From assembly GCA_040756155.1 (NCBI GenBank), contig JBFLZU010000024.1, positions 7,880 to 48,812 of the forward strand: a stretch of 40,933 bases of DNA. The letters are read 5' to 3'. Position numbers and translations under genes: made by a program. The number at the start of each line of letters is the position of its first letter. Position 1 is the first letter of the stretch. The notes under the pieces were generated by a model. It did no database searches and was not told the DNA's origin. It saw only the letters and a program-made list of their open reading frames with translations. This DNA comes from Nitrospirota bacterium (GTDB taxonomy: Bacteria; Nitrospirota; Thermodesulfovibrionia; JACRGW01; JBFLZU01). Shown in pieces: positions 9,255 to 13,822 of this stretch.

Positions 9255-10361
9255 ATGAATTATTTTCACGGTGGAAATATCTACAGTGCCTCGAGAAAAT
9301 ACAGGATAAAAGAAGAACGAATCATTGATTTCAGTGCCAGTATTAATCCACTGGGGGTCTCACGAAAGGCAAAGGCTACTATTAGAAAGGCAATAAAGAG
9401 GCTTCCTAATTATCCTGACCCCGATGTGGAAGCATTGAGAAGATTAATCTCCATCAGATATAACATCTCACCTGAGAGCATACTATGTGGTAATGGTTCA
9501 ACAGAACTTATATATCTTATCCCGATGGCATTTAAACCTCATGGTGTTCTAATACCTCAGCCAACATTCTCAGAATATGAAAGGGCATGCCAGATAAGTT
9601 CTGAGTTGAGAGTTATGAGTTATGAGTTAAAGGAAGAAGATGGGTTTAAGATAAATCCTGATGAGTTTATATCACTCATCACTCATCACTCATCACTATC
9701 CTTCAACATGGCATTTCTCTGCAATCCAAATAACCCCACAGGACATTTACTCAAGAAAGACGAGGTTATGCGGTTGTGCAGTGCTGCGTTTGAGAGGAAT
9801 ATAATGGTTGTTGTCGATGAGGCATTTATTGACTTTACACCAGAAGAATCCATCATCAGAGAAGCATCAGAAAGCAGGCATGTGATTTGTCTCAGGTCAT
9901 TCACAAAATTCTATGCACTCGCTGGATTGAGGATAGGATATGCAGTCACACACGCCGATACCGCGAAGCACCTCAAGGCGTTTAAAGAACCCTGGACGGT
10001 AAATACCCTTGCCCAGAAGGCATCTATAGTTAGCATGAAGGATAAGACATACATAAAGAATACATTTGAGGTAATAGCCAGTGAAAAGGAGTTTCTCCTT
10101 AAAGCGATTAAGAAGATAGATGGTCTTTCGCCTCTTCCATCTTCAGCAAATTTCTTGCTGATAAGGATTGAGGACGAGCGGTTCAATTCAACAAACCTGA
10201 GTGAAATACTTGCAAGAAGAGGAATGCTGGTCAGGGACTGTGCATCTTTTGGCATCGGGAACAGATACATCAGGATAGCTGTAAAAAGCCATGCGCATAA
10301 TGCAAAACTTGTAAAGACCCTTAAGGGGATTTTTGGGGAGACTGGTTTTAAGGATAGTTAA
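9255..10361 (+). CDS. cobD: Threonine-phosphate decarboxylase / HisC-like aminotransferase of the cobalamin pathway
   Basis: This PLP-dependent enzyme probably makes aminopropanol phosphate from threonine phosphate for the cobalamin lower loop. The start ATG 9255 has GGAG at 9245-9248. The beginning MNYFHGGNIYSASRKY and IDFSASINPLG match CobC/CobD-type decarboxylases rather than HisC. The PLP-lysine motif is LRSFTKFYALAGLRIGY, and FLCNPNNPTG and VVDEAFIDF are also present. Position directly after cbiB supports the cobalamin role. Two low-complexity in-frame blocks lie near residues 115-150. The end overlaps the convergent SQR-like gene by 14 bp. A histidinol-phosphate aminotransferase role is the main alternative. 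Confidence 0.87.
   Translation: MNYFHGGNIYSASRKYRIKEERIIDFSASINPLGVSRKAKATIRKAIKRLPNYPDPDVEALRRLISIRYNISPESILCGNGSTELIYLIPMAFKPHGVLIPQPTFSEYERACQISSELRVMSYELKEEDGFKINPDEFISLITHHSSLSFNMAFLCNPNNPTGHLLKKDEVMRLCSAAFERNIMVVVDEAFIDFTPEESIIREASESRHVICLRSFTKFYALAGLRIGYAVTHADTAKHLKAFKEPWTVNTLAQKASIVSMKDKTYIKNTFEVIASEKEFLLKAIKKIDGLSPLPSSANFLLIRIEDERFNSTNLSEILARRGMLVRDCASFGIGNRYIRIAVKSHAHNAKLVKTLKGIFGETGFKDS
9598..9698 (+). repeat. Two simple-sequence blocks inside cobD
   Basis: The first block (9598-9630) iterates GAGTTAT. The second (9671-9698) iterates ATCACTC four times. The two are roughly inverted complements (ATGAGT-type against ACTCAT-type), so the mRNA could pair across the 40-nt interval. Both keep the frame and encode RVMSYELK and LITHHSSL, which have no role in the family. 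Confidence 0.7.
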
Positions 10362-11535
10362 AGAACCTGTGTTTGAGATTCCACAAGTAGTATTTTTCAA
10401 AGGCAACCTTTACCCACCTCACCCACCGTCCCTTCTTAAACAAAGACCTGTTTCTTGGAGGAAGAACAGGATCTGCCATCATCAGTGCCCCTTCATCTCC
10501 CATATCCATAAGGCATGTTACACTTAATTCAGATGGAGAGATACTGCCACCTTTAATATCAGAATAGATGTGCCTTGCAGCTTTTTTTGCCATCTTTACT
10601 GTCATATTCCCTGTTTTTGGCACACCTGTTGGAACTGGGGTCTGTTCAGGAGGGGCAATAGCAACAGAGACACCCACTGCATAGATATTTTTGTATTTTG
10701 TATGTCTATAAAACTCATCTACAGGTATAAATGCCCTTGGGTTACCGAGTCCAGATACCTCTACTGCTTTTACCCCTTTAAAGGCAGGGACTATCATTGA
10801 GTATTTAAAAGGAAGGGTTGTTCCATCCTTCAATCTGATATTTCCAGGGGTAATCTCCTCTATTGCAACATTCGGTAGAACCTTGATATCCCTTATTGCA
10901 AATTCGTCCTCCATCAGTCTTTTTGAGTTCTTGAGCCCAGCGATTCCGAAATGTCCTACATATGGTTCTGATGTTATAAAAAACATCGGCACCTTATGTC
11001 TTTTCCTTATTCTCCTCACCATTGAGTCAATTTCGAATGCAAATTCATAAGCAGGTCCAAAACAACTGACGCCCTGTGCAGAGCCTATCACAATCGGTCC
11101 CAGTCCCTCAAGAAATCTCTTCCATCCATAATGTGCCTTTTCTGCATGTTCGAGTGTGCAGATGCAATCCGTGTATTTATCAGGTCCAAGCCCTGGGACC
11201 GCCTCAAATTCAAGGTATGCACCTGTAGCAATTATTAGATGATCGTAATGAACAAGACCTGATGTTGTATAAACTATTCCTTTCTCTGGATCAATCTTTT
11301 CTGCAGCGGCATGGATAAATCCGATGTCACCCTTATCAAGCAATGGTTTTAGTTTGATTGTTATGTCTCTGGCCTTTCTCAAACCAAGTGCTAACCATGG
11401 TAGAGATGGGATAAAGACAAAGGTATCTGTGTCAGAGACTATTGTGATTTCATGCTTCCTGCCGAGCAGTCTCTTGAGTTCAAAGGCTGTGGTCAGACCA
11501 CCAAAAGAACCACCGATGATAACAATGGTCAGCAT
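10348..11535 (-). CDS. Sulfide:quinone-oxidoreductase-like FAD flavoprotein
   Basis: This is a two-dinucleotide-fold flavoprotein of 395 aa that probably passes electrons from reduced sulfur to quinone at the membrane surface. The N-terminal FAD motif is VIIGGSFGGLTTAFEL and a second fold lies around GPIVIGSAQG. Cysteines at about 124/126, 158 and 341 are placed much like the three active-site cysteines of SQR. The C-terminal amphipathic part (WVRWVKVAFEKYYLWNLKHRFF) would bind the membrane. It is the last gene of the DsrE-type operon, 12 bp after the DsrH-like gene, so its substrate may be protein-bound or polysulfide sulfur. A related NADH dehydrogenase-like role cannot be excluded. Confidence 0.82.
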   Translation of the reverse strand: MLTIVIIGGSFGGLTTAFELKRLLGRKHEITIVSDTDTFVFIPSLPWLALGLRKARDITIKLKPLLDKGDIGFIHAAAEKIDPEKGIVYTTSGLVHYDHLIIATGAYLEFEAVPGLGPDKYTDCICTLEHAEKAHYGWKRFLEGLGPIVIGSAQGVSCFGPAYEFAFEIDSMVRRIRKRHKVPMFFITSEPYVGHFGIAGLKNSKRLMEDEFAIRDIKVLPNVAIEEITPGNIRLKDGTTLPFKYSMIVPAFKGVKAVEVSGLGNPRAFIPVDEFYRHTKYKNIYAVGVSVAIAPPEQTPVPTGVPKTGNMTVKMAKKAARHIYSDIKGGSISPSELSVTCLMDMGDEGALMMADPVLPPRNRSLFKKGRWVRWVKVAFEKYYLWNLKHRFFNYP

Positions 11536-11547
11536 GGCACCACCATG

Positions 11548-11856
11548 TTAAAAGCACCCAAGCACTCTGGTATTGTCCTTCATCATCCTGCTAACCAGGA
11601 TATTATAATCTATGGGCTTTACCTCGGGCAAGAGGTCATCGGGGCTGTAACCTCTTAATTTTATATCATCATCGATAACAAGTATCTCTGCATCCTTACA
11701 CAGTCCTTTATCAAGATTGCCTTTCAGCGTAAAGTATATCGCATCCTGTAAGAAACAGAGTGCCAACTTCGTGTTTTTACTAATCTCTTCGCTGATCTTT
11801 AATGCCCGTTTGAGCTCTTTTCCGGGCGGACTTGATAACAGAATCAATGTCTCCAT
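11548..11856 (-). CDS. DsrH/TusB-like sulfur relay protein
   Basis: A small protein of about 102 aa starting METLILLSSPPGKELKRALK. The start at 11856 has a GGAGG Shine-Dalgarno just upstream; the in-frame extension to 11883 is not needed. Length, position after two DsrE-like genes and the pattern KLALCFLQDAIYF, the usual DsrH/TusB beta-helix with one Cys, fit the DsrEFH/TusBCD superfamily. Those proteins pass persulfide sulfur along conserved cysteines. The motif near the C-terminus (VLGCF) offers another Cys. The assignment to DsrH rests on order and weak similarity. Confidence 0.65.
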   Translation of the reverse strand: METLILLSSPPGKELKRALKISEEISKNTKLALCFLQDAIYFTLKGNLDKGLCKDAEILVIDDDIKLRGYSPDDLLPEVKPIDYNILVSRMMKDNTRVLGCF

Positions 11857-11883
11857 ATGCACCTCCAATTGGTCATAGACCAA

Positions 11884-12246
11884 TCAAAAGATAAGAAATC
11901 CTTTTGACTCGCTTATAGTCTTTGCTATAAATTTCATGTTAGTTATTTTTATTCCCTCGACGAGATCATCTCCTGTTAAGCCTCTTTTTTTCGCAGATTC
12001 TTCTTCTGCGTAGACCTCAGGGCTTAACTCTTCTTCTGGTGAAATCATAGAGAAACTTTCCGCAAGATTTATCCACTCTGTTCCTTCTGTACTCTGACCC
12101 TTTTTACCAGTATAAACACCATCATCAACTAAAAAGAGGTAACCCTTAAAGTTATTTGACTCTGCACCGAGGAGATGTCTTATCGCCTCACCAGCATTGA
12201 CCGTACCATAGGGCGATCTCCTTAATATTATCGAAACCTTATCCAT
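11884..12246 (-). CDS. DsrE-family protein without the usual CxxC
   Basis: This 120-aa protein is a DsrE/TusD-type fold: MDKVSIILRRSPYGTVNAGEAIRHLLG is the opening strand and helix, then FLVDDGVYTGKKGQ, and RGLTGDDLVEGIKI is the C-terminal signature. In sulfur carriers the segment before RGL holds one or two cysteines; here it reads YAEEESAKKRGL with no cysteine. It may therefore be a structural partner of the upstream selenocysteine-type DsrE protein, much as one subunit of DsrEFH lacks active cysteine. It is 111 bp downstream of that gene, separated by a hairpin, and 27 bp upstream of the DsrH-like start. Confidence 0.8.
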   Translation of the reverse strand: MDKVSIILRRSPYGTVNAGEAIRHLLGAESNNFKGYLFLVDDGVYTGKKGQSTEGTEWINLAESFSMISPEEELSPEVYAEEESAKKRGLTGDDLVEGIKITNMKFIAKTISESKGFLIF

Positions 12247-12280
12247 CCTTACCTCCCTGTGAAGAATTTCATCTTATGAG

Positions 12281-12324: not shown

Positions 12325-12360
12325 TAAATGCGATTATTAAAAATTTAGTAGTCGCATTTA
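12325..12360. repeat. Long hairpin over the stop of the first DsrE-like gene
   Basis: TAAATGCGA (12325-12333) and TCGCATTTA (12352-12360) are perfect inverted repeats. The inner parts continue pairing with a few wobble pairs, giving a near-continuous 17-bp stem around 12342-12343. The TAA stop of the upstream DsrE-like gene (12358-12360) is inside the stem. It may stabilise the 5' part of the operon mRNA or end part of the transcripts. Confidence 0.65.
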
Positions 12361-12714
12361 ACTACCAATATTCAAAAATACCTTGCTTTCTCTCAGCAAC
12401 TTAAAGAACTCCTTAAGCGATATCTTTGTGCATCCTTCGATAAAATCATCTTCCGCAGGACCACGGAAGTGGACACAACTCCCTCAGAGAAGCACCTTGA
12501 GGCCTTTCTGTATAAGTCTACTGAAGCCTTCAATCGCACTCGGTAGACCTTTTCCCTTCTGATTACGCATAAAACAGTATATACCGTCGCCAGATGCAAT
12601 GAGATTAACCTGATGTCCTGCATCAAGTGCTGCCTCTGCAAGCCTTATAGCAGTATAGGTGTTCTCGTGGGTATAAGGCGATGTGCTTAATACTAAGGTC
12701 AATATCTCTGCCAC
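12358..12714 (-). CDS. DsrE-like protein with in-frame TGA, probable selenoprotein
   Basis: Read through the TGA at 12484-12486, this gene gives 118 residues, the normal DsrE length. The TGA is codon 77. The first part runs from VLSTSPYTHENTYTAIRLAEAAL to GLKVLL. After the TGA the frame continues GSCVHFRGPAEDDFIEG and ends at TAA. DsrE proteins have a CxxC motif followed by RG and DDxxEG here, so the TGA replaces the first Cys: U-G-S-C. A SECIS-like hairpin follows at once. The start is GTG 12714 with GGAGGTGA upstream. It is the first gene of a sulfur operon behind a perfect promoter. Alternatives are a nonsense mutation or a sequencing error. Confidence 0.8.
12450..12486 (-). promoter_or_regulatory. 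Candidate bacterial SECIS element after in-frame UGA
   Basis: Fourteen nucleotides after the UGA (12484-12486), CUUCCG (12464-12469) and CGGAAG (12450-12455) form a perfect 6-bp stem with the 8-nt loop UGGUCCUG. A GGU in the apical loop at this distance matches the known SelB-binding hairpin of E. coli fdhF (loop with GGUC). The position is three nucleotides further from UGA than in fdhF, within the accepted range for bacterial SECIS elements. Confidence 0.72.
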
Positions 12715-12735
12715 ATTCTCACCTCCTTTACACTG

Positions 12736-12904: not shown

Positions 12905-13822
12905 ATGAAAAATCATAGCCCTTTTAACTCAAGCGAAATTAACGTTCACCTATTGCGAACCTTTTATGTTTTAGCAAAAAAAGGAAGCTTTAGCCGAACT
13001 GCAGAAGAACTTTGTGTCACCCAGCCAGCAATAAGTATACACATTAAAACATTGGAAGACTATTATGGGGTTGGACTTTTTGATAAGGTAGATAAAAAAT
13101 ATGTTTTAACCGAGGCAGGGAAAGCGCTTTATCATTATACAGAAAGAATTTTCAATTTAATCGATGAATCAAAAAGGACGCTCAGTGGTTTTATTGATTT
13201 TCAACGTGGAAGTCTATCTTTGGGTGCAAGCAGTAATATAGGTGTTTATATTCTACCCTGTTTACTTGGTGATTTTAAGAATATATTCCCTAAGATAAAT
13301 ATCCAGGTCTCCATCGGCAATACAAAAACAATTGAGCAGAAGATATTAAATAACGAAATTGACATCGGGTTAGTAGAGGCGCAAATTCGTAGTCCAGAAG
13401 TGGTTATAGAACATTGGAGGGAGGAGAAACTTGTTTTGGTTACTTCACCAAAACATCCTTTTGTGAAACTTAAGAAGGTCAAGCCTTCTCAATTGACAGG
13501 TGAGCCATTTATTGTTGGTGAACGTGGGTCAGGTACACGTCGTGTATTGCAAGATAAAATACCTTCTATTGTAGATCACTTGAAGATTTTTCTAGAACTT
13601 GGAAGCACAGAAGCGGTTAAGAAAGCGGTTGAAGAAAACTTAGGTGTTTCAATTGTTGGAGAAAATACAGTTACTCGAGAGCTCAAAAGTGGCAGTTTGA
13701 AGTCAATTCAAATTGATGGGGTTGAATTGAAGAAAAAATACAATATAATTTATTTGAAAGGGAAAATTTTTACGCCTGTTATAAAGGAATTCATAAATTA
13801 CCTGCATACTTCTAAATGCTAA
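12905..13822 (+). CDS. LysR-family transcriptional regulator
   Basis: A 305-aa LysR-type regulator. The N-terminal winged HTH reads LLRTFYVLAKKGSFSRTAEELCVTQPAIS at about residues 16-44, followed by the linker helix. The C-terminal periplasmic-binding-like effector domain contains LSLGASSNIGVYILP and later GERGSGTRRVLQDK, a pattern seen in CysB/CbbR-like members. It probably controls the following dehydrogenase, SDR and transporter genes; the inducer is unknown. No Shine-Dalgarno is evident before ATG 12905, and a -10-like TAGAAT sits about 10 bases upstream. It is the first gene inside the repeat-bounded block. Confidence 0.93.
   Translation: MKNHSPFNSSEINVHLLRTFYVLAKKGSFSRTAEELCVTQPAISIHIKTLEDYYGVGLFDKVDKKYVLTEAGKALYHYTERIFNLIDESKRTLSGFIDFQRGSLSLGASSNIGVYILPCLLGDFKNIFPKINIQVSIGNTKTIEQKILNNEIDIGLVEAQIRSPEVVIEHWREEKLVLVTSPKHPFVKLKKVKPSQLTGEPFIVGERGSGTRRVLQDKIPSIVDHLKIFLELGSTEAVKKAVEENLGVSIVGENTVTRELKSGSLKSIQIDGVELKKKYNIIYLKGKIFTPVIKEFINYLHTSKC

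Follow-up and report, generated by a model that had tools for sequence, protein, structure and literature searches.

A DsrE-like gene with a predicted selenocysteine codon in a DsrEFH-like, SQR-containing operon of Nitrospirota

In the genome of a Nitrospirota bacterium, the reading frame of a DsrE-like gene is interrupted by a UGA at codon 77. Does this codon end the protein, or is it read as selenocysteine (Sec), and which task would then fall to selenium in an operon whose other genes point to sulfur metabolism? Here, we follow up a sequence-only reading, which had proposed a probable selenoprotein at this place. The analysed stretch of DNA, referred to as the window, has a length of 40,933 nucleotides; its relevant features are collected in Table 1.

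The gene and its reading frame

The sequence-only reading had described a DsrE protein of 118 residues with an in-frame TGA at codon 77 and a terminal TAA. All of these details hold, and the strand, which had been left unstated, is the minus strand. On the plus strand, the corresponding frame was considered as well and was ruled out, as it contains three stops. Read through the TGA, the minus-strand frame carries the motifs U-G-S-C, RG and DDFIEG ahead of its TAA, and it matches the Pfam model DsrE (PF02635) over the full length (69.7 bits, cutoff 22.7). Standard ORF calling returns only 76 aa (12484..12714), just as had been predicted for automated annotation. Since gene callers truncate the protein in this manner, DsrE(Sec) is likely misannotated in many genomes.

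It had also been stated that the TGA takes the place of the first Cys in the CxxC of the family. Motif and position are right, but CxxC is not general to DsrE proteins, since E. coli TusD has the first Cys only, whereas YchN has CxxC. Other single-TGA frames were scanned across the window, and a second selenoprotein candidate was not found among them.

Table 1. Features of the DsrE(Sec) locus, in window coordinates
Feature	Coordinates	Strand	Remarks
LysR-family regulator, divergently transcribed	12905..13822	+	NCBIfam selenium-associated LysR 226 bits, below cutoff 250
Shine-Dalgarno-like sequence AAGGAGGTGA	12719..12728	-	upstream of GTG start; read from sequence
Sec-containing DsrE-like gene (predicted)	12358..12714	-	118 aa with U77; GTG start 12714, TAA stop at 12358
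In-frame UGA, predicted selenocysteine codon 77	12486-12484	-	first position of U-G-S-C
SECIS-like stem-loop	12450..12469	-	6 bp plus U-G closing wobble, loop UGGUCCUG; z -2.6 in window
DsrF/TusC-like subunit	11884..12246	-	120 aa, no Cys; Pfam DsrE 45.1 bits; conserved next gene
DsrH/TusB-like subunit	11548..11883	-	Pfam DsrH 37.3 bits; conserved operon position
Sulfide:quinone oxidoreductase (SQR)	10348..11535	-	395 aa; best solved match Aquifex SQR 3hyv, E 1.4e-99

Decoding of codon 77

The codon aligned with residue 77 was read codon by codon in 95 related loci. It is TGA in 87, TGC in six and TGT in two of them, and nothing else occurs, as is expected for an exchange between Sec and Cys. 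Thus, Cys stands at this position wherever the TGA is missing (eight loci), which is what the sequence-only reading had hoped to see in an alignment of homologues. A search of 101 relatives yielded about 50 matches with 40-62% identity and exactly one TGA each. Of 396 genomes surveyed across the phylum, 106 gave a match at E <= 1e-12, with one TGA in nearly all of the close ones. In a scan of genome contigs, matches were found almost only in loci titled Nitrospirae/Nitrospirota or Thermodesulfovibrionales; a search of a plasmid collection returned remote DsrE proteins only (haloarchaea and others, 28-37% identity). Four close orthologs in one family carry Cys, in the motif C-G-T-C. On a tree of 82 sequences two changes between the Sec and Cys labels are needed; the tree rests on few columns and does not fix whether this Cys group lost Sec or never had it.

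The source assembly (2.26 Mb, 97% complete, 129 contigs) contains all four genes of Sec synthesis and insertion that were to be sought in the rest of the genome, each above its curated cutoff: selA (612 bits, cutoff 268), selB (389 bits, cutoff 242), selD (345 bits, cutoff 125) and selC, the tRNA-Sec gene (75.6 bits, gathering score 47). The selD gene (contig C15:7597-8508) itself has one in-frame TGA (E 2.9e-103) and very probably encodes a selenoprotein too, as in many bacteria. Among relatives, selA is present in nearly all TGA genomes tested and absent from all ten tested genomes with distant Cys homologues. Two TGA genomes lack a selA match, probably through an assembly gap, because tRNA-Sec exceeds the gathering score in both. 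Three of the four genomes with the C-G-T-C version retain selA, so that Sec is not strictly required by the operon.

A hairpin with GGU in its loop had been noted 14 nt after the TGA. It consists of a perfect 6-bp stem, CTTCCG-TGGTCCTG-CGGAAG (12469-12450), and proves to be conserved, correctly placed and tied to the TGA. For the 28 nt from +14 to +42, the folding energy was set against that of synonymous-codon shuffles drawn from the codon usage of each locus. All 76 distinct TGA sequences are more stable than their shuffle mean (mean z -3.03), and the hairpin of the window reaches p 0.005 (z -2.6). Elsewhere upstream and downstream the same measure is close to zero, except for a weaker value of -1.1 at the UGA itself. 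The conserved stem spans +17 to +36. Its apical loop has G25 in 76 out of 76 TGA sequences, corresponding to 12461 in the window, and the following U26 in 73 out of 76. Stem pairs vary on both sides in places, e.g., C-G and U-A at columns 20/33 and 23/30; these changes partly coincide with codon synonymy, and the shuffle test is therefore the stronger evidence. In the seven distinct Cys sequences the stem-loop is weak or absent. Judged by these sequence comparisons, the SECIS is under selection as an RNA element, over and above its protein-coding content.

How else could the UGA be explained? Ordinary termination or a pseudogene would leave a fragment of 76 residues, in line with standard gene calling and with the use of UGA as the end of other genes here, e.g., of dsrF, the next gene. 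Yet the protein past the TGA is conserved to its end in all relatives, and 87 loci from independent assemblies have TGA at this very codon, so that this account is highly improbable. Equally improbable is a sequencing or assembly error in a Cys codon: the window does come from a fragmented assembly, but the same codon recurs in dozens of independent genomes and is accompanied by the downstream hairpin. We regard error, pseudogene and ordinary termination as effectively excluded. Least credible of all is a code change that would make UGA a codon for tryptophan or some other standard amino acid. We found nothing in its favour, and against it stand the UGA that terminates dsrF within the operon, the homologues with a sense codon, which have only Cys at position 77, and the Sec machinery. 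Nor did we encounter any of the observations that had been named in advance as speaking against a selenoprotein, i.e., a genome devoid of Sec machinery, a corrected base, or homologues that all stop at this codon. Hence the machinery, the restriction of the codon to TGA or TGY in 95 loci and the conserved hairpin all back the original proposal, and codon 77 is almost certainly decoded as selenocysteine, which would make the gene product a selenoprotein.

Active-site position, operon and proposed role

The structure predicted for DsrE(Sec) (pLDDT 90) has A. vinosum DsrE as its best PDB match (2hy5_A, TM 0.87), followed at lower rank by DsrF (2hy5_B), YchN and, lower still, TusD. Designed pentatricopeptide-repeat proteins, which also appeared in the profile search of solved structures, were discarded as artefacts, their scores being sums over many weak repeats. 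In the profile alignment U77 falls on the first Cys of the C-K-T-C of YchN and on Cys78 of E. coli TusD, the latter with a score that is weak by itself. Cys78 is the cysteine that carries sulfur in TusD. Fold (compared for the DsrE subunit), the gene trio E-F-H and the position of Sec77 at Cys78 are thus shared with A. vinosum DsrEFH (2HY5) and E. coli TusBCD (2D1P), whereas Sec in place of Cys, the additional Cys80, the co-encoded SQR and the lack of a conserved DsrH Cys20 set the present system apart; sequence identity is low, about 16% on the structural match. E. coli YchN (1JX7), the best sequence match among solved structures, has its CxxC at the same place, but no Sec. It is a stand-alone protein with no known function.

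Most loci with sufficient flanking sequence show the same gene order, DsrE(Sec)-DsrF-DsrH-SQR, and so does a shorter Sec group with U-T-G-C. A DsrH or SQR gene went undetected in some loci at the threshold used, or lies beyond the fetched sequence. We name the operon DsrEFH-like, because the curated NCBIfam models for TusD, TusC and TusB give 22.7, 44.9 and 31.5 bits, all below their cutoffs of 89, 94 and 49. DsrH probably starts at an internal ATG ten codons into the frame. Cys20 of DsrH, which A. vinosum cannot do without in vivo, is not conserved in the DsrH of the operon, and E. coli TusB likewise lacks it. As DsrF has no Cys at all, Sec77 and Cys80 would here be the main reactive residues in the putative complex. 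The SQR resembles those of Aquifex (3HYV) and Acidithiobacillus (3SZ0) in its three redox Cys (124, 158 and 341), which are conserved among the operon SQRs. It is not a selenoprotein and scores far below the cutoff for the Sec-containing type III SQR (NF049943). The divergent LysR-family protein possibly regulates the operon; its gene is not conserved beside the operon in related loci.

In the window, dsrF and dsrH share one reading frame (11548-12273, minus strand), parted only by the TGA stop of dsrF, which is an in-frame UGA in a genome that decodes Sec. This arrangement is most likely due to chance, because dsrF and its relatives agree at their C-terminal end, where this TGA lies.

For the function of the protein, A. 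vinosum provides the closest model. There, DsrE-Cys78, which is indispensable in vivo, binds sulfur and hands it over to Cys111 of DsrC (PMC3397948). From the sequence evidence on decoding, active-site position, fold and operon we infer, in the spirit of the sequence-only reading, which had placed selenium in sulfur transfer, how the parts may form a complex, relay sulfur in one direction and employ Cys80. The SelA/SelB/tRNA-Sec/SelD system of the genome would read the UGA as Sec, guided by the downstream SECIS hairpin, and the product would take the place of DsrE in a DsrEFH-like complex. SQR would oxidise sulfide to sulfane sulfur. Sec77 would attack this sulfur and bind it in a selenosulfide (Se-S), where A. 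vinosum DsrE forms a persulfide on Cys78. As the resolving partner within U-x-x-C, Cys80 may then help to release the sulfur to an acceptor (e.g., DsrC or TusA), or else the sulfur may go straight on to DsrC/TusA. In the genome, dsrAB is present too, as are two genes for DsrC and several TusA proteins. Compared with Cys, Sec is the stronger nucleophile and the better leaving group.

The main rival to this sulfur relay accepts the selenoprotein, but assigns Sec77 and Cys80 to a thiol-disulfide or polysulfide reductase pair that forms a selenenylsulfide and protects or recycles SQR and DsrEFH, rather than carrying sulfur. U-x-x-C is the classic redox motif, Cys80 is nearly invariant in the alignment, and published selenoprotein lists count DsrE-like proteins among the thiol-based redox proteins (PMC1088965). 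Such a role agrees less well with the grouping of the gene with those for DsrF, DsrH and SQR, with a DsrE fold in which Sec occupies the site of the sulfur-carrying Cys78, and with the absence of the second Cys from distant Cys homologues. Altogether, we consider the redox pair rather unlikely, while the evidence leans slightly towards a sulfur-relay role of Sec-DsrE. The combined account of a selenoprotein that acts as DsrE-type subunit of an SQR-linked, DsrEFH-like relay is, taken as a whole, the best explanation and a probable one. For the fuller proposition, a DsrEFH-type relay that has Sec as its sulfur carrier, is coupled to SQR within a single operon and extends through the Nitrospirota, the chances appear evenly balanced.

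If it is true, selenium carries sulfane sulfur in energy metabolism, a chemistry undescribed in the literature searched. With Sec at the residue that carries sulfur in A. vinosum, the operon would give a concrete candidate role for selenium in sulfur-based energy metabolism within a large environmental phylum.

Known DsrE-like selenoproteins and further family members

The novelty implied by the sequence-only reading was overstated. DsrE-like UxxC selenoproteins were reported from the Sargasso Sea in 2005 (PMC1088965) and from Desulfovibrio vulgaris in 2006 (PMC1794560), DsrE 1 and DsrE 2 selenoproteins followed from GOS in 2008 (PMC2398784), and a 2026 review lists such proteins, with WP_014524487.1 as example, and describes the functions of nearly all such proteins as uncharacterised (PMC13188914). 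DsrE-like UxxC selenoproteins have thus been catalogued since 2005-2006, and the gene described here is a further member. Compared by description, the published proteins (PF02635) share the DsrE domain, Sec as first residue of U-x-x-C and a bacterial SECIS directly downstream, whereas the DsrF-DsrH-SQR context and a function are absent from the searched papers. No paper combining DsrEFH with a selenoprotein was found in the literature searched, which covers few subscription journals, and the papers retrieved for Nitrospirota and selenoproteins concern unrelated matters according to their titles and abstracts. The phylum-wide DsrEFH-SQR setting of Sec-DsrE therefore appears unreported in this literature. 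For proteins that were first listed two decades ago and still lack an assigned function, an operon with DsrF, DsrH and a sulfide oxidase offers a testable role.

The shorter Sec-DsrE group mentioned above comprises ten loci. Its members mostly carry U-T-G-C and are shorter by four residues, and in three genomes they are found together with the first group. The SECIS loop of this second group is GGUCUU, close to the GGUCU of E. coli fdhF.

In the genome studied here, the canonical dsrAB and DsrC genes sit on contig C37, where a second DsrE-family protein, of Cys type or stop-free and 31% identical, adjoins dsrAB (C37:13912-14214). On another contig (C117:18227-22277) lies a second dsrAB-like pair with its own DsrC; it reaches 334 bits to dsrA, below the cutoff. 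Stop-free DsrE paralogs similar to the one on C37 occur in most relatives searched.
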